Assembly (NCBI RefSeq): GCF_001423245.1
Contig: NZ_LMOH01000012.1
Location: 521,679-585,678, forward strand
Reading direction: 5' to 3'
Origin: Aureimonas sp. Leaf324
GTDB taxonomy: Bacteria; Pseudomonadota; Alphaproteobacteria; Rhizobiales; Rhizobiaceae
Length of the DNA stretch: 64,000 bases
Under the pieces are notes generated by a model. The model made no database searches and was not told the DNA's origin. It saw only the letters and a list, made by a program, of their open reading frames with translations. This document shows positions 4,735-19,405 of this stretch, one piece after another; position 1 is the stretch's first letter; each line of letters begins with the position of its first letter. The position numbers were made by a program, and so were the translations under genes.

Positions 4735-5682
4735 CTACGGGCTGAAGGGCCGGACCTCGGCGCCCTCAGCAAAACGGCCGAGGCGCTTGATCTCCCATTC
4801 GAGGAGAATGCCGCTCGTTTGAAAGACCCGCTCGCGCACCGTCTCGCCGAGAAGCTCGAGATCGTGCCCCGTCGCGTCGCCGACGTTCAGCATGAAGTTG
4901 CAGTGGAGCGCCGACATCTCGGCGCCGCCGATCCGAAGGCCGCGGCAGCCCGCACGATCGACCTCCTTCCAGGCCGAGATGCTCGGCGGGTTCTTGAAGG
5001 TCGAGCCGCCCGTCTTCTCGCGCACCGGCTGCACGGTCTCGCGGTGATGCTGCACCTCGTCCATCGCGCGGCGGATCTCGTCCTTGGGGCTCTCCGGCCC
5101 CTCGAAGACCGCCGAGACGAAGATCAGGTCCTCGGGCGCGTCGGCGTGGCGATAGGAGAAGCCCATCTCGGATCTGGTGAGGATGTGCATTCGGCCTTGC
5201 CGGTCGAGCGCGCGCGCCTCCACGAGGCGATCGGCCGTCTCGACCCCGTTGGCGCCGCCGTTCATGCGGATCGCGCCGCCGATCGAGCCGGGAATGCCGT
5301 GCAGGAAGTGGAAGCCGCCGATCCCCGCGTCGAGCGCCACCGCCGCCACGCGCTTGTCGCTCGCCGCCGCGCCCGCCCGGATGCGCCCCTCGCCGATCGC
5401 CTCGACCTCGCCGAAGCCCTTGGCCGGCAGCCGCAGCACGACGCCGCCGATGCCGCCGTCGCGGATCAGGAGATTGGAGCCGATGCCGACGACGGTCAGC
5501 GGCACCTCGGCCGGCAGCGCCGCCAGGAAGCGTGCGAGGTCCGCCTCGTCGGCCGGCTGGAACATCAGGTCCGCCGGGCCGCCGGTGCGAAACCAGGTGA
5601 TCTTGGAGAGGTCCGCCCCGGCCTGCAGCTTGCCGCGCAGGCCGAGGGCGGGATCGGAGAGCGCGGCGAAGAGCTCGCTCAA
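4735..5682 (-). CDS. murB: UDP-N-acetylenolpyruvoylglucosamine reductase
   Basis: Reduces UDP-GlcNAc-enolpyruvate to UDP-MurNAc with NADPH and FAD. At about 315 aa it has the normal MurB length. FAD-binding motifs are visible ([18 protein letters not shown]), as are [12 protein letters not shown] and GSTFKNP. I place the start at TTG 5682, which overlaps the murC stop (TTGA) behind a G-rich stretch, because the family N-terminus (LSELFAALS) begins there. An in-frame ATG at 5757 lies 75 nt inside murC and adds unmatched sequence. It is the last gene of the minus-strand cluster. Confidence 0.92.
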
Positions 5683-7091
5683 GCCCCCCGCCCCAGCGCC
5701 TCGAGTTCCTTCGGCAGCGCGTAGGCCCAGGCCGTAATGTTGCCGGCGCCGAGGCACACGACCATGTCGCCGGCCTCCGCCACGCGATGGACGAGCGGCG
5801 CGAGCTCTGCAGGGCCGTCGATCAGCCGCGCGTCGCGATGGCCGCCGAGGCGCAGGCGCTCGGCCAGCATCACGGAATCGACGCCGTCGATCGGTTCCTC
5901 GCCGGCCGAGTAGACCGGCGCGAGGATCACCGTGTCGGCGTCGTTGAAGCAGGCGGCGAAATCAGCGAACAGCGACTGGAGGCGCGTGTAGCGGTGCGGC
6001 TGCACCACGGCGACGACGCGGCCCGAGGCGGCCGAGCGCGCGGCCGACAGCACGGCGCGGATCTCGACCGGATGGTGACCGTAGTCGTCGTAGATGTCGA
6101 TGCCGAGCGCCGTTCCGGTGTGGGTGAAGCGGCGCTTGACGCCGCCGAAGCCGCCGAGCCCCTTGCGGATCGCCTCCTCGGTGATCCCGATGCGGTGGGC
6201 GACGGCGACGGCGGCCGTCGCGTTCGACACGTTGTGCCGGCCGGGCATCGGCAGGACGAGGTCCTTCATCGCCGTGGTCGCGCCGGTGATGCGGTCGCGG
6301 ATCGTCACGTCGAAGGTCGAGCGCGGCCCTTCGGCGCGCACGTTCTGGAAGCGGGCGTCGGCCTGCAGGTTCTCGCCATAGGTGATGATGCGCCGGTCCT
6401 CGATCTCCGAGACCAGCGTCTGCACCTCCGGGTGGTCGAGGCACATAACGGCGAAGCCGTAGAAGGGCACGTTCTCGACGAAGGCGCGGAAGGCCGCGCG
6501 CACCTTGTCGAAGGTGCCGTAGTGGTCGAGGTGCTCGGGATCGATGTTGGTGACGACCGCGACGTCGGCGGGCAGCTTCAGGAAGGTGCCGTCGCTCTCG
6601 TCGGCCTCGACCACCATCCACTCGCCCTCGCCCATGCGGGCGTTGGTGCCGTAGGCGTTGATGATGCCGCCGTTGACGACGGTCGGGTCCATGCCACCGG
6701 CGTCGAGCAGCGTCGCCACCATCGAGGTCGTCGTGGTCTTGCCGTGCGTGCCGCCGATGGCGATCGCCTGCCGGAAGCGCATGAGCTCGGCCAGCATCTC
6801 GGCGCGGCGCACGATCGGCAGCAGCCGCTCGCGCGCGGCCGACAGCTCGGGGTTGGAACGCTTGATCGCCGTGGAGACGACGACGACCTCGGCCAACCCC
6901 AGGTTCTCGGCGGCGTGGCCGATATGGACGGTCACGCCCTTCTCGCGCAGGCGCTGCACGTTGGCGTTCTCCGAGGCGTCGGAGCCCTGCACGGTGTAGC
7001 CGAGGTTGACCAGCACCTCGGCGATGCCGCTCATGCCGATGCCGCCGATGCCGATGAAATGCACCGGGCCGATATTGGGCGGCATCTTCAT
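5679..7091 (-). CDS. murC: UDP-N-acetylmuramate--L-alanine ligase
   Basis: Adds the first amino acid of the stem peptide, L-Ala, to UDP-MurNAc using ATP. At 470 aa it has the normal length. It has an N-terminal Rossmann motif GIGGIGMSG (14-22), the Mur-ligase P-loop GGTHGKTTT (about 113-121), EADESDG and a DDYGHHP segment in the C-terminal domain. The start ATG at 7091 is preceded by AGAGGAG at ideal spacing, so the upstream in-frame extension to 7238 into murG is rejected. It overlaps murB by four bases and follows murG after 31 nt. Confidence 0.96.
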
Positions 7092-7122
7092 GGCCGGCTC
7101 CTCTGGTCTTTTCGTTGAACGA

Positions 7123-8226
7123 TCAGCGCCTTGCGGCGGCGTCCGGCATAGACGCGACGAGATCGGCAAGCAACCGCGCGGCTTCCGGAATGCCCTCGCC
7201 CCTGGCGGCTTGCGCCATGACCTCGGCCTTGTCGGCATCGTTGGCGATCATGGTGGTGAGGCCGGCAAGGCGCTCGGGCGTGAGGTCCGTCTGCTTCGAG
7301 ACGATGGTCCCGTGCGCCGACTGGAGACGCGCCGCATTGGCCGCCTGGTCGTGGTCGAGCGCATACGGGTATGGCACGAGGATCGAGGGACGCCCGATCA
7401 CCGACAGTTCGGAAACCGTCGACGCGCCGGCGCGGCTGACCACGAGATGCGCCTTGGCAATGCGGGCCGCCATATCCTTGAAGAAGGGCGAGACGTCGGC
7501 GGGGATGCCGATCTCGCGATAGGCGGCGACGACCTTCGCCTCGTCCTCGGCGCGGGCCTGCTGCGTCACGCGCAGCCGGGCGCGGAGGCCGGCCGGCATC
7601 AGCTTCACGGCCGCCGGCACCGCATCGGAGAAATAGCTCGCGCCCTGGCTGCCGCCGAAGACGACGAGCTCGAACGGCTCGCCCTCGCGGCTCGGCCGAT
7701 AGGGCGTGGCGGCGGCATCGAGCACAGCGGGGCGCACCGGATTGCCGGTGACGGTGATCTTGGCCGCGACCGCGCCCTCGGCCTCGGACTGTGGGATGCC
7801 GGCCGCGATCCGGCGCACCCGTGTCGACAGGAACCTGTTGGCGCGCCCCATCACGGCGTTCTGCTCGTGGATCGCGGTCGGAAGCCCGAGCTGCACCGCC
7901 GCCATCATCGGCGGGATGGTCGGATAGCCGCCGAAGCCGACGACGGCCGCCGGCCGCAGCCGCTTCATCAGCGCGATCGCGCCGCGATAGCCGCTCCAGA
8001 GCTTCAACCCCGAGCGCAGGACGGCGGCCGGGTTCTTCGAGCCGAAGGTGGCGGAGGGCACGACATGCGTCTCGTCGGCCGGGAAGCTGCCGGCATAGCG
8101 CCCGGCCCGCTCGTCGGTCACGAGGTGCACGGTGTGGCCGCGCGCGTGCAGCTCGTGCGCCAGCGCCTCGGCGGGAAACAGGTGGCCGCCGGTCCCGCCG
8201 GCGCACAGGAAGATGGGTTGGGTCAT
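7123..8226 (-). CDS. murG: Lipid II-forming GlcNAc transferase
   Basis: Transfers GlcNAc from UDP-GlcNAc to lipid I on the inner face of the membrane to give lipid II. At 367 aa it is a GT28-type protein. The N-terminal [10 protein letters not shown] glycine loop, [27 protein letters not shown] and the sugar-nucleotide segment [11 protein letters not shown] are all intact. It starts at ATG 8226, nine nt after the ftsW stop, and murC follows. Codon use matches its neighbours. Confidence 0.96.
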
Positions 8227-8235
8227 GTCGACGTT

Positions 8236-9402
8236 CTAGCGCGCGGGATAAGGCGCCTGGAAGGCAAGCGTGCGCTCCAACAGCCGATCGGTCTGCGATA
8301 CGTTCTCGGCGCGCTTGCGCGTCAGCGCCAGCACGAAGCCGGCCGAGATCGCGACCGCCATCATCGACGAACCGCCGTAGGAGATGAACGGCAGCGTCAT
8401 GCCCTTGGCGGGCATGAGGTGGAGGTTGACCGCCATGTTGATGATCGACTGCAGGCCGAAGAGCATCACGAGGCCCGAGATGGCGAGGCGGTTGAAGGTG
8501 TCGCGCTGGTTGAAGGCGATCGACAGGCCGCGGATGACGACGAAGCAGAACACCGCCGAGAGCGCCATGCAGGAGACGATGCCAAACTCCTCGGCGATCA
8601 CCGAATAGGCGAAATCGGTGTGGCTGTCGGGCAGCATGCGCTTGATCGTGCCCTCGCCCGGCCCCTGGCCGAACCAGCCGCCCGACAGGATCGCCTCGCG
8701 CGCCGTGTCGGTCTGGTATGTGTCGCCCTCGCCTGTGAGGAAGCGGTCGATACGCGAGGCGACGTGCGGGAAGACCGTATAGGCGCCGAGGAAGCCGACG
8801 ACGCCGACGCCGCCGAGCAGCGCGATCCACACCCACGACAGGCCGGCCATGAAGAACATGCAGCTCCAGGTGGCCGAGGTCAGGATCGTCTGGCCGAGGT
8901 CCGGCTGCGCGACGAGAAGGGCCGTGACCACGAGCAGCAGCATGATCGAGAAGAGATTGCCCGGCACGTCGGGGCGGCGCGAGCGCTCGGCGAAGAGCCA
9001 GGCGCAGGTGACGACGAAGGCCGGCTTCATGAACTCCGACGGCTGCACGCTGAGGGGCCCGAAGTCCATCCAGCGCCGCGCGCCCTTCACTTCCATGCCG
9101 AAGAACAGCGCCATGACCATGACGACCAGCGAGCCGGCCAGCATGATGATCGACATGCGGCGCACGCCCCGCGGCGTCAGCAGCGAGGTCGCCAGCATCA
9201 CGGCGATCGAGGGGAACAGGAACAGCGCGTGCCGCTTCACGAAGTGGAACGGCTCAAGCCCGATCTTCTCGGCCACCGGCGGGCTCGCCGCGAAGGAGAG
9301 CACCATGCCGCCGATCATCAGGATCAGGAAGGCGGCGAGGAACCAGCGATCGATGGACCACCACCAGTCCGTGATCAGGCCCTTCTTGGCGCGGCTCGAC
9401 AT
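8236..9402 (-). CDS. ftsW: SEDS-family septal peptidoglycan polymerase
   Basis: A 388-aa integral membrane glycosyltransferase that polymerises lipid II at the septum with FtsI. It has many hydrophobic segments after a short basic cytoplasmic tail (SSRAKKG). The SEDS signature is present as GQGPGEGTIKRMLPDSHTDF, followed by AEEFG, and near the end comes LPFISYGGSSM. Its ATG lies 3 nt after the murD stop and its stop is 9 nt before murG, which suggests translational coupling. Confidence 0.96.
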   Translation of the reverse strand: MSSRAKKGLITDWWWSIDRWFLAAFLILMIGGMVLSFAASPPVAEKIGLEPFHFVKRHALFLFPSIAVMLATSLLTPRGVRRMSIIMLAGSLVVMVMALFFGMEVKGARRWMDFGPLSVQPSEFMKPAFVVTCAWLFAERSRRPDVPGNLFSIMLLLVVTALLVAQPDLGQTILTSATWSCMFFMAGLSWVWIALLGGVGVVGFLGAYTVFPHVASRIDRFLTGEGDTYQTDTAREAILSGGWFGQGPGEGTIKRMLPDSHTDFAYSVIAEEFGIVSCMALSAVFCFVVIRGLSIAFNQRDTFNRLAISGLVMLFGLQSIINMAVNLHLMPAKGMTLPFISYGGSSMMAVAISAGFVLALTRKRAENVSQTDRLLERTLAFQAPYPAR

Positions 9403-9405
9403 GGC

Positions 9406-10800
9406 TCATCCCTTCGAAGACGGTTCGGTCGCGGGCAGCGCGGCCACAAGCTGGCGGAACGTGTCGCCACGCACCTCGAAATTGCGGAACTGGTCGAAAC
9501 TCGCGCAGGCCGGCGACAGGAGGACGACCTCGTTCTCGCCCGTGCGGCCCGCGTCGCGCGCCGCATCCTCGACCGCAACCTCCAGCGTACCGGAAATTTC
9601 GTAAGGAATTCGTTCACCAAGAGCGGCGGCGAAGGACGGGGCCGCTTCGCCGATGAGGTAGGCCTTCGCGACCCGCGGAAAGAGCGGCTCCAGCGAGGCG
9701 ATGCCACCGTCCTTCGGCAGGCCGCCGGCGATCCAGTGAATGCGCTCGAAGCTGCCGAGCGCGGGCGCGGCGGCATCGGCGTTGGTCGCCTTGGAATCGT
9801 TGACGAACAGCACCTTGGCGCGTCGCCCGACCTCTTCCATGCGATGGGCAAGGCCCGGAAAGGACCGAAGGCCTTCCATGATCTCGTCGTCCGACAGGCC
9901 GAGCGCCGTCAGCGTCGCGACGGCGGCGGCGGCGTTCTGCCCGTTGTGACGCCCGCGCAGCGAGCCGATCCCGGCGAGCGGAAAGCGCGCCTTGACCGCT
10001 CCCCCTTCCGAGACACGCACCTCGCCGTCCGCGAAATAGACGCCGTCGTCGAGCGCCCGCTCCTTGGAGATGCGCACCACGACGTTGCCTTCGCTCTCGT
10101 GCCAGTCGGCAATGCCGGTGCAGTAGTCGTCGTCGACGCCGATGACCGCGGTGCCCGCTTCCTGCAGCAGGCGCGCCTTGATCGCGGCGTAGTTCTCCAT
10201 CGTGCCATGGCGGTCGAGATGGTCGGGCGTCAGGTTCAGGAGGATGCCGACCGTCGGGGCGATCGAGGGTGCGAGGTCGATCTGGTAGGACGAGCATTCG
10301 ACCACGTAGAAGCGGTCGGGCCGGGGCGGCTCCAGCGTCAGCACGGCGACGCCGATATTGCCACCGAGCTGCGTGTCGCGGCCCGACGCCTTGAGACAAT
10401 GCGCGATCAGGGCCGTGGTGGTCGATTTGCCGTTGGTGCCGGTGATGGCGACGAAGGGCGCGCGCGGCGTCGACGTCTGGCGCTCGCGCACGAAGATTTC
10501 GATGTCGCCGATCACCGGCACGCCGGCGGCATTGGCGAGATCGGCGGCCCAGTGGGGCTTGGGGTGCGTCAGCGGCACGCCGGGCGACAGGACCAGCGCC
10601 TCGACGCCCGCCCAGTCGAGATCGTGCAGGTCGCCGGTCGGGATGCCCTCGGCCCGCGCGGCCTCGACGCTCTTCGGATTGTCGTCGAACGCGGTGAGAC
10701 GCGCGCCGCCGGCCTGCAGCGAACGGGCCGTCGCCAGCCCCGATCCGCCGAGACCGAACAGGGCGACGTTGCGATCCTTGAACGTGTGGGCGGCGATCAT
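9406..10800 (-). CDS. murD: UDP-N-acetylmuramoylalanine--D-glutamate ligase
   Basis: Adds D-Glu to UDP-MurNAc-L-Ala. At 464 aa it has the family length. It has an N-terminal nucleotide-binding fold ([11 protein letters not shown]), the P-loop [13 protein letters not shown] near residue 116, [11 protein letters not shown], and [12 protein letters not shown] in the C-terminal domain. I chose ATG 10800 (MIAAHTFKD); the open frame continues upstream into mraY, but without homology. It follows mraY after 8 nt and ftsW starts 3 nt after its stop. Confidence 0.95.
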
Positions 10801-10808
10801 CCCGAGCC

Positions 10809-11891
10809 TCAGCGCAGCTTGAGCGTGGACAGGCCGACGAAGGCCAGGAGGAGGGCGATGATCCAGAAGCGGACGACGACCTGGCTCTCGGTCCAGCCGA
10901 GCTTCTCGAAATGGTGGTGGATCGGCGCCATCAGGAAGACGCGGCGGCCCGTCATCTTGAACCAGCTGACCTGGATGATGACCGACAGGGCCTCGATCAC
11001 GAAGAGGCCGCCGATCACGACGAGCACCAGCTCGTGCTTGGTGGCGACCGCGATGGCGCCGACGAGGCCGCCGAGCGCGAGCGACCCGGTGTCGCCCATG
11101 AAGATCGCGGCGGGCGGCGCGTTGAACCACAGGAAGCCGAGGCCCGCGCCGATCACCGCACCGCAGACGACCGCGAGTTCGCCGGTGCCGGCGACGTAGT
11201 GGATCTGCAGGTAGTTGGCGAAGTTGGTATTACCAGCGAGATAGGCGATCAGGCCGAAGGCGGCCGCCGCGATCATGATCGGCATGATCGCCAGACCGTC
11301 GAGCCCGTCCGTCAGGTTGACGGCATTGCCGGCTCCGACGATCACGAAGGCGGCGAAGGCGGCATAGAACCAGCCGAGGTCGATCAGGAGCGACTTGAAG
11401 AAGGGGATCGAGAGCGAGCTCGCGAACGACCCCTGCTGCGCCAAGATCACCATGACGCCGGCGGCGAGGGCGATCAGGAATTCCAGCCCGAGGCGCGACT
11501 TGCCGGAGAAACCCTTGTGGCTCTGCTTCGTCACCTTGAGATAGTCGTCGTAGAAGCCGATCGAGCCAAAGCCGATCGTGACCAGCAGCACCATCCAGAC
11601 GTAGAGGTTGGTGAGCTCGGCCCAGAGGAGCGTCGCGACGAGGAAGCCCGAGAGGATCATCAGGCCGCCCATCGTGGGCGTGCCGGCCTTCTTGAAATGC
11701 GTCTGCGGACCGTCAGCGCGGATCGGCTGTCCCCGCCCCTGCCGCAGGCGCAGGTTCGCGATGATTGCCGGGCCGAACAGGAACACCACGATGAACGAGG
11801 TGATCATCGCCCCGCCGGTGCGGAAGGTGATGTAGCGGAAGACGTTGAAGAGCTGCGCGTCGTCGGCGAGCGTGGCGAGATAGGACAGCAT
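10809..11891 (-). CDS. mraY: Phospho-N-acetylmuramoyl-pentapeptide transferase
   Basis: Transfers phospho-MurNAc-pentapeptide to undecaprenyl phosphate, giving lipid I. It is a 360-aa polytopic membrane protein. The Mg-binding Asp motifs are present ([32 protein letters not shown]), as is the conserved [12 protein letters not shown] loop near the C-terminus. It starts at ATG 11891, 3 nt after murF, and is followed by murD after 8 nt. Confidence 0.97.
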
Positions 11892-11894
11892 GGA

Positions 11895-13363
<1,469 letters not shown>

Positions 13364-13367
<4 letters not shown>

Positions 13368-14812
13368 CGGGCCGCCTCCGCGATCGCGGCGCGCACTTCC
13401 TCATGGTCCGAGAAGGGCAGCGTGTCCGCGCCGACCGTCTGGCCGTTTTCGTGGCCCTTGCCGGCGATGATCACCGTGTCCCCCGCCCGCGCCTGCTCCA
13501 CCGCACGGCGGATCGCGGCGCGGCGGTCGCCGATCTCCTCGGCCTCCGGCACGGCGGCCAGAATCTGCGCGCGGATCGCGGCCGGCACCTCGGAGCGCGG
13601 GTTGTCGTCGGTGACGATCACCACGTCGGCAAGCCGTTGGGCGATCTCGCCCATGATCGGGCGCTTGCCGCGATCGCGATCGCCGCCGCAGCCGAACACG
13701 AGGATGACGCGGCCCGTGGTGAAGGGGCGAACGGACGACAGGACGTTTTCCAGCGCCTCGGGCTTGTGGGCGTAGTCGACGAAGACCGGCGCCCCGTCGG
13801 CCGTCGTGCCGGCGAGATCGAGGCGACCCGGCGCACCCTTCAGGTGCTCCAGCGCCGGCAGGACGTCGTCGACGTTGCGGCCCGTTGCGATCGCAAGGCC
13901 CGCCGCGACCAGCGCGTTCGCCATCTGGAACTCGCCGGCGAGCGGCAGCACGATGCGGTAGAGCTTGCCCGCCGCCTCGATTTCGGCGACCTGCCGATGA
14001 CGCTCGTGCTCCAGCCGCTTCAGTTTCAGAAAGCCGCCGTTGCTGCCGACCGTCATCACGGTGGCGCCGGCCCGCTGCGCAGCCTCCGTGGCGGCGGCCG
14101 ACCAGCGGTCGTCGGCGTAGATCACGGCCGGCGCGCCCTTCGGCAGCAGCGTATCGAAAAGGCGCATCTTGGCGCGGAAGTAGTCGTCCACCGTCGGGTG
14201 GTAGTCCATGTGGTCGCGGCCGAGATTGCTGAAGCCAGCAGCCCTCAGTTCCACGCCGTCGAGCCGGCGCTGGTCGAGGCCGTGGCTCGACGCCTCCATC
14301 GACGCATGGGTCACGCCCTCGTCGGCGAGTTCCGCCATCAGCCGAGCGAGCGCCACCGGCTCGGGCGTCGTCAGCGAGCCGTACTCGTCGCGCGTCGGCG
14401 AGACGACGCCGGTCGTGCCGATCGAAGCGGCCTTTAGGCCGCACATCGTCCAGATCTGGCGCGTGAAGGCGGCGATCGAGGTCTTGCCGCTGGTGCCGGT
14501 CACCGCCACGACATGGTCGGGCTGGCGGCCGTAGAAGCGGGCGGCCATGCGGGCGAGCGAGCGGCGTGCGTCGCCGCTGCGAAGGACGGGAACCGCCGGC
14601 GCGGCATCGACGCCGACCGGCAGGAGGACGGCCGCCGCGCCGCGCGAGACCGCATCCCCGACGAAGGCCGCGCCGTCGCCCTTGGTGCCGGCGAGCGCGG
14701 CGAACAGCATGCCGGGCCGCACCTCCCGCGAGTCCGACGTCAGGCCGGTGATGTCGACCGTTTCATCGCTAGGCCCCGTGGCGAGGTCCTCGGCCAGATC
14801 GCAAAGCTTCAT
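13364..14812 (-). CDS. murE: UDP-MurNAc-L-Ala-D-Glu--meso-diaminopimelate ligase
   Basis: Adds the third stem residue. At 482 aa it has the P-loop VTGTSGKTS near residues 104-112, [22 protein letters not shown] and the DNPR motif (TDDNPRSE). DNPR is the established signature for meso-diaminopimelate rather than lysine, so the wall is predicted to be of the DAP type. The start ATG 14812 follows CGGAAGATGG. A 115-nt gap with a terminator-like hairpin separates it from ftsI; murF overlaps its end. Confidence 0.96.
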
Positions 14813-14837
14813 TCACCATCTTCCGCATCGCATGGAA

Positions 14838-14862
14838 AAGCCGGCGGATGGCCCGCCGGCTT
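14838..14862 (-). terminator. Terminator-like hairpin between ftsI and murE
   Basis: On the minus strand AAGCCGGCGG pairs perfectly with CCGCCGGCTT across a 5-nt loop, and the right arm runs into a short T run (CTTTTCC). It lies in the only sizeable gap of the otherwise packed cluster, 26 nt before the murE start. It could attenuate transcription between ftsI and the downstream mur genes. The T run is short, so read-through is likely. Confidence 0.55.
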
Positions 14863-14927
14863 GCCCGGGTTCGTCTCGTGGGCTCGTCCTGTAGAACACG
14901 GAGCGAGCCTGTTGAAGCATTTTGACG

Positions 14928-16652
14928 TCAGTACGACACGAGGAGCGACTTGCCCGTTTCCCCGAAGTCCGGCTTCACGTCGAGGAAGGTGGCGGCGCGG
15001 CGCACGATGTTGCCGACCATCGGCGCGGCATTGTAGCCGGCGGTCGCCGCGTACTTGCCCTCTTCCTTCTTCGGCTCGTCGATGATCGAGAGCACAAGAT
15101 AGCGCGGCTTCTCGATCGGGAAGGCGCCGACATAGGCGTTGAAGCGCATGTCCTTGGAGTAGCGCCCGGCGACGACCTTTTCCGCCGTGCCCGTCTTGCC
15201 GCCGACATGGTAGCCCGGCGGGTTGGCGCTCTTGCCCGAGCCCGACACGCCGTTCAGCTTGAAGATCTCGCGCATCTCGGCCGAGGTCTGGTCCTTGAGG
15301 ACCTTCACCTTGATCTTGTCCGCCTCTTCCTTCGTGCGCGGCAGGAAGGTCGGCGGCACGTACCAGCCGTCGTTGACGATCGCGGCCGCGGCCACCGCCG
15401 TCTGCAGCGGCGTCGTCGAGACGCCGTGCCCGAAGGCGATCGTCATCGAGTTGATCTTCTTCCACTGCTTGGGCTGCGTCGGCATCGCCGTCTCGGGCAG
15501 TTCGGTCTTGATGCGCGACAGGAGGCCCATGCGCGTCAGGAACTCCTTGTGCCCCTCGATGCCGACGAGGTCCGCCTCGCGGGCCGAACCGACGTTCGAG
15601 GAGTACTCGAAGATCTCGGGCACCGAGAGCGGGCGGCCCTTGCCGTGGAACTCCTTGATCGTGAAGCCGGCGACGCGGAAGGGCGTCGTCGAGAACACGT
15701 CGTTGTAGCGCACGAGCCCGGAATCCAGCGCCATCGCGGTCGTGAAGATCTTGAAGGTGGAGCCCATCTCGAACGTGCCGGCCGAGATACGGTTGAGGTT
15801 TTCCTTCTTCAGCGCGTCGCCCGGAAAGTTCGGGTCGTAGTCCGGCAGCGAGGCCATGGCGATGATCTCGCCGGTCTGGATGTCCATGACGAGGCCGCCG
15901 GCCGCGATCGCCTTGTACTTGGCCATGGCGGCGACGAGCTCGTCGCGCACGATGTGCTGGACGCGCAGGTCGATCGACAGCTTGACCGGCTCCAGCTTGT
16001 CGTTGCCGGCGAAGCCGAGCTGCTGGAGATCGCGGAAGCCCGCGTCGTCGACATACTTCTCCATGCCGGCGATGCCCTGGTTGTCGACGTTGGTCACGCC
16101 GACGATGTGGGCTGCGGTCGGGCCGCCGGGGTAGAAGCGCTTCTTCTCGGTCCGGAAGCCGATGCCGGGAATGCCGAGCGCCATGATCTCCTGCTGCTGG
16201 CGTGGCGTCAGCTCGCGCTTCAGCCACGCGAAGCCGGCCTTGGAGGACAGGCGCGCGTGCAGGATCTTCGGATTGAGGTCCGGCAGGACGGTGAGGAGCG
16301 ACTCCGTCGCCTCGTCCGCGTCGACGATGCGCTTGGGCTCGGCGAAGAGCGAGGCGGTCTTGATGTCGGTCGCCAGCACCTCGCCGTTGCGGTCGAGAAG
16401 GTCGGGGCGCGTCACCGGCCCCTGCCCCGCGGCCGAGCGGTAGGTGTCGTTCGGGTCGGACTGGGTGCCGAGATAGACGAGGCGGCCGCCGATCACGAGG
16501 TAGATCGCGCAGAAGAGGCCCGTCGCGATGACGAAGCGCGGCTTGTTGCGCGGCGCCTCGACGCGGCGGCGACGAAGGCCCGTTGCGGTCGTGGCGGGCG
16601 CGGCGGCAGCGGTCAGCCCGAGGCCGGAGAAAAGCTTGCGCAAGGCTTTCAT
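14928..16652 (-). CDS. ftsI: Septal peptidoglycan transpeptidase PBP3
   Basis: A class B penicillin-binding protein that cross-links septal peptidoglycan with FtsW. At 574 aa it has a basic cytoplasmic N-terminus, one membrane segment at about 41-62, a PBP dimerisation domain, then the transpeptidase domain. The three active-site motifs are present in order: STFK (SxxK), SSN in YSSNVGSA, and KTGTA. The start ATG 16652 overlaps the ftsL stop (ATGA); upstream in-frame sequence is ftsL read in another frame. Confidence 0.95.
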   Translation of the reverse strand: MKALRKLFSGLGLTAAAAPATTATGLRRRRVEAPRNKPRFVIATGLFCAIYLVIGGRLVYLGTQSDPNDTYRSAAGQGPVTRPDLLDRNGEVLATDIKTASLFAEPKRIVDADEATESLLTVLPDLNPKILHARLSSKAGFAWLKRELTPRQQQEIMALGIPGIGFRTEKKRFYPGGPTAAHIVGVTNVDNQGIAGMEKYVDDAGFRDLQQLGFAGNDKLEPVKLSIDLRVQHIVRDELVAAMAKYKAIAAGGLVMDIQTGEIIAMASLPDYDPNFPGDALKKENLNRISAGTFEMGSTFKIFTTAMALDSGLVRYNDVFSTTPFRVAGFTIKEFHGKGRPLSVPEIFEYSSNVGSAREADLVGIEGHKEFLTRMGLLSRIKTELPETAMPTQPKQWKKINSMTIAFGHGVSTTPLQTAVAAAAIVNDGWYVPPTFLPRTKEEADKIKVKVLKDQTSAEMREIFKLNGVSGSGKSANPPGYHVGGKTGTAEKVVAGRYSKDMRFNAYVGAFPIEKPRYLVLSIIDEPKKEEGKYAATAGYNAAPMVGNIVRRAATFLDVKPDFGETGKSLLVSY

Positions 16653-17005
16653 CGAATGCGGCCCTGGCTGGCGGATGCGATCTTGGAGCTGTGCGCGGCC
16701 TCCTCGGGAGCCGGGGGCGCGGGCACGGCGGGAAGCTGGTTCGGCTCGACGATCTGCTGCGGCTCGACCGGCTTCAGCTGCAGGACGGCGTCGAAGTTGC
16801 GCGCCAGCGCCTCGAGGCGGAACGGCTGGTTGAGGAGGCTCCAGTCGGCTTCGAGCAGCTGCATGGTCTCGCGCTCCTGCGCGATCTTTCGGTCGAGCAG
16901 CATCACCTCGTGCTCGAGCGATTCGGCCTGATACTTCTGGCCGAAGGTCCACGTCGCGACGACGAGGACGATGGCGACGAGAAGGACGTCGAGCGTCTTC
17001 AGCAT
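16649..17005 (-). CDS. ftsL: Cell division protein FtsL
   Basis: A 118-aa bitopic divisome protein. A membrane segment at about 5-24 (LDVLLVAIVLVVATWTFG) is followed by a heptad-like region at about 25-60 (YQAESLEHEVMLLDRKIAQ) and then NQPFRLEALARN, typical of alphaproteobacterial FtsL. The last 35 residues are Pro/Ala-rich. Identification rests on position between rsmH (3-nt gap) and ftsI (4-nt overlap) as well as topology, since FtsL sequences are poorly conserved. Confidence 0.88.
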   Translation of the reverse strand: MLKTLDVLLVAIVLVVATWTFGQKYQAESLEHEVMLLDRKIAQERETMQLLEADWSLLNQPFRLEALARNFDAVLQLKPVEPQQIVEPNQLPAVPAPPAPEEAAHSSKIASASQGRIR

Positions 17006-17008
17006 GGG

Positions 17009-18046
17009 TCAGGCAGCTCCGGACGGCGGCAGGTCCGCAAGGGATGGCAGATCGACGAAGGCCGTCGCCTCCGCATCCCGCCGGGGCGGAAGCGCGGTTC
17101 GGATGGCGGCCCGCAACTTGGCCGATCGTGCGCGAGGATTGAGAGCGATCTCCCGCTCGTCGCCCGTCACGGCCTTGTTGCGAGCCTCGAATGTGACGTC
17201 CTTATGCTGAACATCCGGTAAATGGCGCGAACCTGACGCCGCCTCCGAGCGGTCGCGGAGAAAGCGTTTCACGATGCGATCCTCCAGCGAATGGAAGGTC
17301 ACCACGACGAGCCGGCCGCCCGGCTTCAGCACATGCTCGGCGGCCACCAGCGCGCGCACGAGCTCGCCGAGCTCGTCGTTCACGAAGATGCGCAGGGCCT
17401 GGAAGGTGCGCGTCGCCGGGTCGATCCGGTCCTTGTGCGAGCGGCCGACCACCTTGCCGACGAGACCGGCGAGATCGAGCGTGCGCTCGAACGGGCGCTC
17501 GGCGCGGCGCGCCTCGATGGCGCGTGCGATCCGGCCCGCCTGCCGCTCCTCGCCGAGGAAGTTCAGGATGCGCGCGAGATCGCCCACCTTGAAGCGATTG
17601 ACAACGTCGGCAGCGCTCGGGCCGGAGCGACTCATGCGCATGTCGAGCGGCCCGTCCTTCTGGAACGAGAAGCCCCTCTCGGCATCATCGATCTGCATGG
17701 AGGAGACGCCGATGTCGAGCACCACGCCGTCGAACGGCGCCTCGCCGCGCTCGGCCGCGATCGCCCTGAGGTCGCCGAAGCGGCCGGGATGGAGCGACAG
17801 GCCGGGGTAGCGCTCGAGAAGCGGCTTCGCCCCCTCGATCGCCGTCGGATCGCGGTCGATGCCGAGAACGCTGGCGCCGCGGTCGAGGATCGCCGCGGAA
17901 TAGCCGCCCGCGCCGAACGTGCCGTCGACGAAGCGCTCGCCCAGCTTGGGGTCGAGCGCCTGAAGAACGGGGTCGAGAAGCACCGGAACGTGGCGGACCG
18001 GTCCGCCACCGGCCGGCACGAGGGCCGAGCCGTGGTCCGCCATCAT
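17009..18046 (-). CDS. rsmH: 16S rRNA (cytosine1402-N4)-methyltransferase
   Basis: Methylates N4 of C1402 in 16S rRNA using SAM; also called MraW. At 345 aa it has [13 protein letters not shown] at the N-terminus, the SAM loop [37 protein letters not shown] and [13 protein letters not shown]. The ATG at 18046 overlaps the mraZ stop (ATGA). As in most bacteria, it is the second gene of the division and wall cluster. Confidence 0.96.
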
Positions 18047-18504
18047 TCCGGTGTACTCTCGAACGCGCCTCGGCCCTGGCGGCGCGCGGTGAGCCGCGCC
18101 CTCGCTTCAGCCCGATAGGCTTCGAACTGGGATGGCTCCCAGAGTTGGAAGAAGTGGTTGCGCCCGACGAAGGCGACGCGGTCGCTGATGCCCGTGTGCG
18201 AGCGGATGAAATCGGTCACCATGATCCTCCCCTCGCCATCGAACTTCAGGAACGCCCCGTCGCCATAGGCGAAGAGCGACATGTCGGCGTAGTCCTCGCC
18301 GAAGGGATCCTCGGCGGCCATGCGGGCTTCGTAGCGCTCCAGGAGATCGACGCCGCCGACGTCGATCGCCGGATGCCCGATCGCCTGGAGGGCGTAGAGT
18401 TCCCGCACCCCGCGGCCGGCAAGGACCTGACGGAAGTGAGCCGGAACCGACACGCGACCCTTGGCGTCGATGTTGTTGATCGCATTGGAAAGAAACCGCT
18501 CCAC
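18043..18504 (-). CDS. mraZ: Transcriptional regulator MraZ
   Basis: A 153-aa AbrB/SpoVT-like DNA-binding protein, the first gene of the cluster. The first repeat has [19 protein letters not shown]; the second has GEGRIMV. I place the start at GTG 18504 because the family N-terminus (M-E/D-RFLSNA) begins there; the open frame reaches 18588 with unmatched sequence. In E. coli, MraZ represses its own operon by binding TGGGN direct repeats, and four such repeats lie 180-215 nt upstream over a predicted promoter. The codons near the end run into rsmH. Confidence 0.92.
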
Positions 18505-18685
18505 CAACTGCGAACCCCACACCCCGCCCGGCACCAGCCCTTCCACCACACCCGCCCCGCCGAAACGGGCACGACAAGGCCCATCCAAGCAACCTATGGT
18601 TGCGCGGTTGATCCGATCTCAAGCGATCGAACGAGGCCCTGGCATGCTCGGAATCGGCCCTGAACGGGCCTTCGAATGTGAATTT

Positions 18686-18720
18686 TGGGATAACATGGGC
18701 TCGTATGGGGGTCAATGGGA
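18686..18720 (+). promoter_or_regulatory. Four-copy TGGGN MraZ-type operator
   Basis: TGGGA (18686), TGGGC (18696), TGGGG (18706) and TGGGA (18716) repeat with an exact 10-bp period and 5-nt spacers. This is the spacing reported for E. coli MraZ sites, which has three copies. Here they read on the strand opposite mraZ and overlap its predicted -35/-10 elements, which fits repression by blocking RNA polymerase. Confidence 0.8.
18688..18715 (-). promoter_or_regulatory. Predicted mraZ operon promoter
   Basis: On the minus strand a -35 element TTGACC (18715-18710) is followed after 16 nt by TTATCC (18693-18688), or after 17 nt by TATCCC. It points toward mraZ and would give an untranslated leader of roughly 170-180 nt. 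It lies within the TGGGN repeat block. Confidence 0.5.
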
Positions 18721-19007: not shown

Positions 19008-19405
19008 AAGAGCCAGCCGGCCTGTAAGCCGGGTTCTGTGCGACGGCCGAAGCCGTGCGGCGACCATTCCTCTGGGACGCCGCTCGCGCGGCGCCTCGTG
19101 CAACCTACCCGGACGACTGGCCCGGAGCGGGCCGGCGGTTACCCGCCACGTCGTCCCTATTCGGTCTTGCTCCCGGTGGGGTTTACCATGCCGCGACCGT
19201 TGCCGGCCGCGCGGTGGGCTCTTACCCCACCCTTTCACCCTTACCTCGCGACCCGAAGGCGGCGAGGCGGTCTGCTCTCTGTGGCACTGTCCCTGGGGTC
19301 ACCCCCGCCGGGCGTTACCCGGCACCGTTCCTCCTTGGAGCCCGGACTTTCCTCCCCCGCCGTCTTTCGACGATTGCGGCAGCGGTCGCCCGGCCGGCTG
19401 GCTGC
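19008..19405 (-). ncRNA. rnpB: RNase P RNA, class A
   Basis: Catalytic RNA of RNase P, which removes tRNA 5' leaders. On the minus strand the conserved GAGGAAAGTCCGGGCTCC element lies at 19354-19337, and the 3' element ACAGAACCCGGCTTA at 19039-19025. A 12-bp P1 stem pairs AGCCAGCCGGCC (19403-19392) with GGCCGGCTGGCT (19022-19011) and sets the ends to within a few nucleotides, giving about 395 nt. It lies between a lytic transglycosylase gene and mraZ. Confidence 0.95.

Follow-up and report, generated by a model that had tools for sequence, protein, structure and literature searches.

The window, by which we mean the whole 64,000-nucleotide stretch of Aureimonas sp. Leaf324 DNA that was analysed, carries mraZ, rsmH and further dcw genes on its minus strand, with the RNase P RNA gene lying upstream of the dcw promoter (Table 1). 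The mraZ open frame reaches back to 18588. Its product matches the MraZ family profiles (50 bits for PF02381; 195 bits for NCBIfam NF001477, against a cut-off of 162) and contains both DXXXR motifs, D13-R17 and D89-R93, whose D and R are invariant across 71 aligned MraZ sequences. Ten positions of that alignment are invariant, among them D13, K15, R17, P21, R25, D89, G92 and R93. An AlphaFold2 model of the window protein, built on the same alignment, has a pLDDT of 93; when it was used as a Foldseek query, the MraZ structures of M. pneumoniae and M. genitalium ranked first, with TM values of 0.65-0.81 over the MraZ matches. These matches include two M. genitalium MraZ-promoter complexes, 9r4j and 9sz7, whose titles speak of 'its promoter' and of a '4 box promoter', respectively. 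Downstream of rsmH, a DivIC/ftsL-like match is weak and below Pfam's cut-off, and six of the 12 minus-strand ORFs scanned there have no Pfam match at the thresholds used, some of them perhaps being read in the wrong frame. RNase P was the only Rfam family found in the whole window at gathering score.

Table 1. Features of the mraZ promoter region and the dcw genes, in coordinates of the window.
Feature	Positions	Strand	Remarks
Box 1, TGGGA	18716..18720	+	Predicted MraZ-type box; farthest from mraZ, just upstream of the -35
Box 2, TGGGG	18706..18710	+	Predicted MraZ-type box; directly 3' of the -35 hexamer, touching its last base
Box 3, TGGGC	18696..18700	+	Predicted MraZ-type box; in the promoter spacer
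Box 4, TGGGA	18686..18690	+	Predicted MraZ-type box; overlaps the -10 hexamer
Predicted -35, TTGACC	18710..18715	-	Fills the gap between boxes 1 and 2; TTG invariant in 27/27 aligned genera
Predicted extended -10, TGnTATCCC	18687..18695	-	Hexamer TATCCC at 18692-18687; 17-bp spacer
Predicted transcription start	18680	-	7 nt downstream of the -10 and 176 nt upstream of the mraZ GTG
Predicted 5' leader of the dcw transcript	18505..18680	-	
mraZ	18043..18504	-	153 aa; GTG start at 18504 by homology
rsmH (mraW)	17009..18046	-	PF01795
Further dcw genes	4735..17005	-	Transpeptidase (ftsI), Mur ligases, Glycos_transf_4 protein (mraY), murB; named by domain and order
RNase P RNA gene rnpB	19009..19401	-	Upstream of the dcw promoter, same strand

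Four TGGGN copies lie upstream of mraZ on the opposite strand, separated by spacers of exactly 5 nt and thus repeating every 10 bp. Read on the mraZ strand, the sequence is CCCA-TTGACC-CCCA-TACGAG-CCCA-TGTTAT-CCCA. This arrangement had been reported in a first-pass annotation, and both the exact spacing of the copies (at 18686, 18696, 18706 and 18716) and their strand were confirmed. The array is unique in the genome and far above chance: across 4,415,253 bases the three-copy pattern occurs at the mraZ site only, as two overlapping matches, and not at all in a reversed control. Pairs of copies are at chance level, numbering 50 in the whole genome and 71 when the control pattern is reversed. 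Given how often TGGG occurs in the window, ca. 45 pairs, 0.10 three-copy runs and 0.0002 four-copy runs would be expected per genome.

A sigma70-type promoter-like sequence is interleaved with the array, the boxes abutting or overlapping the -35, the spacer and the extended -10. The first-pass annotation had placed TTGACC and TTATCC elements under the repeats; the former was borne out, at 18715-18710, while the proposed -10 lies one base upstream of a better hexamer, TATCCC (18692-18687), which has a 17-bp spacer and an extended TGn. This extended -10 fills the gap between boxes 3 and 4 with its TGnTAT and takes its last three letters, CCC, from box 4. By E. coli standards TATCCC is a weak -10. 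It is acceptable in the class, because more than 60% of the -10 elements of R. sphaeroides, Z. mobilis and C. crescentus, none of them a rhizobium, are reported to lack the -7 T (PMC8407463).

The predicted leader can be set beside published ones, which are 268 nt long in R. sphaeroides and 170 nt long in S. meliloti; for other species, C. crescentus among them, the figure is 70 nt or less (PMC5089854). For S. meliloti 4H41, whose -10 ends at -178, the +7 rule used for the window predicts a start 171 nt before mraZ. Rather than pointing to a promoter elsewhere, the published S. meliloti start therefore agrees with the predicted promoter within 1 nt, in a comparison that concerns a relative of the window organism and a published value given in prose on a figure, for a strain that may not be 4H41 (PMC5089854). 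The distance from the end of box 1 to the ATG is 206 nt in seven Sinorhizobium genomes, and one genome of the same family as the window genome (G531) encodes a MraZ identical to that of S. meliloti 4H41. For agrobacteria, the genes with secondary start sites in at least one member are reported to include mraZ (PMC10469942). The dcw leader and UpsM of R. sphaeroides likewise belong to an alphaproteobacterial mraZ promoter with a long leader; the study that describes them treats the leader RNA, and the terms TGGG, direct repeat, MraZ binding, MraZ box and repressor are absent from its main text (PMC5089854).

We compared the upstream regions of mraZ in a set of 61 genomes, made up of the window's own and others of its genus, family and order. 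A PF02381 match was found in 48, all of whose upstream regions were taken; 21 of these 48 belong to one genus, and 28 genera are represented in all. Exact TGGG runs at a 10-bp period opposite mraZ comprise four copies in 27 genomes, three in 12, two in five and one in four (14, five, five and four, respectively, when each genus is counted once), and on the mraZ strand runs never exceed two. Four copies, which the first-pass annotation had singled out as more than the usual three, are thus the commonest number in this set. Nor is that number new, having been described in B. cenocepacia (PMC7761207) and appearing in the title of the M. genitalium complex. Exact runs are limited to one or two boxes in nine of the 48 genomes. 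We also scored a 22-letter core, TTGACn(n)CCCAn6CCCATGnTATCCCA, with a threshold of 19; all 48 mraZ-bearing genomes, and all 28 genera, reach it. The -10 is TATCCC in 37 of the 48. Among named Rhizobiaceae loci (the best 80 of 290 matches, and close kin), all 80 have four boxes, with one upstream of the -35.

The wider class set held 152 genomes, of which 125 match PF02381; 123 were taken besides the window's own, one being left out because its upstream region is missing, and one more (L255) was dropped from the counts for too short an upstream region, leaving 122. Opposite mraZ, TGGG runs reach five copies in nine of these, four in 35, three in 32, two in 27 and one in 17, with none in two. 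Taking the order and class sets together, runs of at least three at period 10 occur opposite mraZ in 115/170 genomes; no such run was found on the mraZ strand (0/170) or at any other period from 5 to 16. The core reaches 19 in 139/170 genomes overall and in 91 of the 122 class genomes, with 31 mraZ-bearing class genomes below it, compared to 0/170 on the other strand and 0/170 after one block shuffle per sequence (maximum 17 in both controls). Among the 91, the -10 is TATCCC in 79. The repeats are thus conserved near mraZ in relatives, across the order set and most of the class sample; the lack of conservation that the first-pass annotation had named as refuting its reading was not observed. 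As a separate observation, in one of the 31 low-scoring class genomes (G117, L270; core score 15) three in-phase TCCA/ACCA units replace CCCA upstream of mraZ, with a fourth 11 bp away, an altered box letter in one lineage.

Genomes without mraZ offer a complementary comparison. Within the order set, 13 genomes lack a PF02381 match; rsmH could be located in 11 of these, and the two that were dropped are 85% and 88% complete. A search of the 13 with the window MraZ gave one marginal match (E 0.009, in G058), on a contig other than that of its rsmH. No array was found in the 1200 bp upstream of rsmH in any of the 11, where core scores are 11-14 and exact TGGG runs consist of one copy opposite the gene and at most two on its strand. 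The core is therefore present in 48/48 genomes with mraZ versus 0/11 without (Fisher 3.6e-12, or 6e-10 by genus, with kinship ignored). The 11 span eight families, one of which also has mraZ-bearing genera. Thus, the array co-occurs with mraZ and is absent upstream of rsmH where mraZ is absent.

Arrays away from mraZ were examined at six places among the matches listed. Those of L339 and L340 each fall within a long open reading frame and are probably chance matches in coding sequence. L341 holds the core a second time, close to the end of a contig, and its assembly is 6% contaminated. The remaining three, L337 (1759-1792), L338 (1769-1802) and L293 (1802-1825), are arrays of three to four TGGG copies in three genomes and could be extra MraZ targets or chance occurrences. 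L293 belongs to G036, one of the 11 genomes in which no mraZ was detected, and is a three-copy pattern on a contig other than that of its rsmH.

MraZ of E. coli binds TGGGN repeats, and the window array resembles the E. coli Pmra (mraZ1p) site in that both are tandem TGGG direct repeats with a 10-bp period at the mraZ promoter. The mraZ strand of E. coli K-12 MG1655 reads TGGGA-AATTG-TGGGG-CAAAG-TGGGA after the -10, so that its boxes are GTGGG, in the sense orientation and downstream of the promoter-like sequence, which ends 8 nt before the first box. In contrast, the window boxes are ATGGG, antisense, four in number and inside the promoter. The leaders differ as well, with 176 nt predicted in the window versus 38 nt in E. 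coli (PMC5089854, PMC7761207). The first-pass annotation had read the array as carrying the E. coli code into an alphaproteobacterium; the TGGG repeats and their period bear this out, whereas box letter, orientation and position do not, and the extension is not a simple one.

The same contrast was seen between the groups sampled. For loci outside the class we used the best-scoring 30 of 124 phylum-sample genomes with matches, plus E. coli (n=31). With the unit relaxed to TGG, runs of at least three occur on the mraZ strand in 23/31 and on the other strand in 0/31, whereas among Alphaproteobacteria they occur on the mraZ strand in 1/171 and opposite it in 148/171. Exact TGGG sense runs of at least three are found in only 4/31 of these loci, the unit outside the class being GTGGN. 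In 18 of the 23 sense loci, the first box follows the end of a promoter-like sequence by 4-10 nt; in the other five none was found at that position. The base preceding TGG is A in 77% of the 531 alphaproteobacterial units, while among the 76 units from outside the class it is G in 95%. Thus, the predicted boxes of the sampled Alphaproteobacteria differ from those of the outside loci in orientation, position and one letter (ATGGGA versus GTGG(G)).

Like the window array, PmraBc of B. cenocepacia has four repeats with a 10-bp period (7 + 3 nt), identified by sequence in a fragment that is gel-shifted by MraZ; these repeats were sought as GTG motifs and, unlike those of the window, lie downstream of the -10 and overlap the start site (PMC7761207). 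GTG is described as part of the repeat unit in E. coli, B. subtilis, mycoplasmas and B. cenocepacia (PMC7761207) and is lacking from the window's ATGGG. Mollicutes also have repeated boxes at the mraZ promoter and the same MraZ fold, with four boxes in M. genitalium by the title of 9sz7; the Mollicutes box given in PMC8475190, AAAGTG[T/G], differs from that of the window, and protein identity is ca. 16%. Among the titles and abstract openings of open-licence papers, we found nothing on MraZ boxes in Alphaproteobacteria. The inverted, interleaved ATGGGA architecture, although common to most of the class sample, was not found described among these titles and abstract openings.

Taken together, these comparisons suggest that the array is very probably the docking site of MraZ at the dcw cluster. 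We consider it likely, and by a wide measure, that it acts as an MraZ operator at the first dcw promoter, through which MraZ would keep polymerase out and so repress the operon whose first product it is. With their 10-bp phase, the four boxes would hold the bound protein on roughly one side of the helix. Since they adjoin or overlap the -35, the spacer and the extended -10, MraZ and sigma70 polymerase would scarcely fit on the site at once. With both promoter elements overlapped, steric exclusion of polymerase is the simplest reading of the sign and mechanism, and negative autoregulation would be its consequence. MraZ represses Pmra in E. coli (PMC7761207), represses in M. genitalium (PMC8475190) and binds the promoter fragment with four repeats in B. 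cenocepacia (PMC7761207). The predicted operator is well supported and ordinary in kind, with a variant architecture.

The alternative closest to this reading is that MraZ binds the array but activates the operon or has no net effect. MraZ is indeed called an activator in mycoplasmas (PMC7761207, introduction); however, a protein bound to boxes that touch or overlap the -35 and -10 would be expected to block polymerase, and the repression known from E. coli and M. genitalium also makes this alternative unlikely. A second possibility is that the four GGG tracts were selected as a promoter G-quadruplex, the fit to an MraZ box being a by-product. The window array has four G3 tracts with 7-nt loops and so fits the canonical motif, (G3N7) x3 G3, as do all 71 arrays of four to five boxes in the order and class sets, and a G-quadruplex has been reported in the S. 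aureus mraZ promoter region (PMC11796246). Yet the motif is missing from 64 of 76 arrays of two to three boxes, and a quadruplex needs neither the exact 10-bp spacing nor the T of TGGG, which is kept in most copies. Arrays were, moreover, not found upstream of rsmH where mraZ is absent. We therefore regard a quadruplex as very improbable.

Conservation of the sigma70 promoter alone, with incidental repeats, is harder still to credit. TTGAC and TGnTAT equal the boxes in conservation. Where the spacer is 17 bp (27 genera), the box letters (0.85-1.00), TTG and TGnTAT (0.93-1.00 outside n) are all nearly fixed. The box letters that lie outside both elements (columns 6-9 and 16-19) nevertheless hold at 0.85-1.00, whereas in the six-letter gap from box 2 to box 3 only the first two positions are fairly constant (0.85 and 0.74), the other four (0.33-0.59) and the flanks being variable. 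Extra in-phase boxes also extend beyond the promoter, with an exact box upstream of the -35 in 31/48 order genomes and, among class genomes with a core of at least 19, a box after the -10 in 51/91 and before the -35 in 29/91. Finally, among the 107 class promoters with a core of at least 16, 36 have an 18-bp spacer, and in these the -35 shifts by one base while the boxes keep their phase. The idea that the array is the site of another dcw regulator, such as NtrX, which binds upstream of mraZ in R. sphaeroides (PMC7240162), or CtrA, for which S. meliloti mraZ is listed as having sites (PMC4414408), is just as hard to credit, given that the array tracks the presence of mraZ and that the proposed NtrX motif, GCAn9TGC (PMC7240162), is unlike it.

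The reading of the array as an MraZ operator could be extended to the Alphaproteobacteria as a whole, with polymerase assisted by a CarD/CdnL-type factor. This genome probably encodes such a protein: one of three matches is a 252-aa open frame, and the other two lie in frames of more than 1190 aa, the size that we take to be expected of transcription-repair coupling factors. The joint reading, a composite dcw operator-promoter arising from one ancient event, is tentative, and we would sooner doubt it than rely on it. If true, operator and sigma70 promoter would be interdigitated letter for letter, in an orientation opposite to that of E. coli and its relatives. MraZ and polymerase would compete for the same bases, and the operator would pin the -10 to TATCCC, without a -7 T. 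Expression of the whole division cluster would then be tied to MraZ release and to the polymerase helper CdnL/CarD. Orientation, position and one box letter would have changed together, in a single event between the classes.

Control of dcw genes by MraZ has been investigated in E. coli, Burkholderia, mycoplasmas and some others. The likely site is now located at single-base resolution in a class to which Caulobacter and the rhizobia belong, both of them leading models for the control of the cell cycle. An inverted direct-repeat operator with a matched change of box letter would allow a natural test of DNA recognition by the MraZ oligomer, and its inversion also bears on whether occupancy of the promoter is enough for repression. 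Natural controls are provided by the genomes with neither mraZ nor the array.

Other sequence features were seen around the promoter. In the 80 named Rhizobiaceae loci (L120-L199, the best 80 of 290 matches), a conserved block lies around and after the predicted start, ca. 7-45 nt after box 4, with the consensus ACTGCacAaGGGC...GcCC..TCATCGC and a short GC hairpin; in the register tested, support for its pairing is mixed, at 34-75 of 80 over five core pairs. The window has a similar hairpin, GGCCC-GTTCA-GGGCC, at 18656-18670 (minus strand), which is also present in some members of the genus. Further into the mraZ leader, at 18589-18603 (minus strand), the palindrome GCAACCATAGGTTGC fits the proposed NtrX motif (PMC7240162). 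That motif occurs in the mraZ leader of 5/21 genus members and of 5/80 of the same best-matching Rhizobiaceae loci. All seven Rhizobiaceae upstream regions inspected (L120, L125, L130, L150, L162, L167 and L183) contain TAACC(C/A)TT(T/C)GTTAAACTTAAC, which we take to be a CtrA-like motif; in S. meliloti 4H41 (L120) it lies 45-66 bp upstream of box 1.
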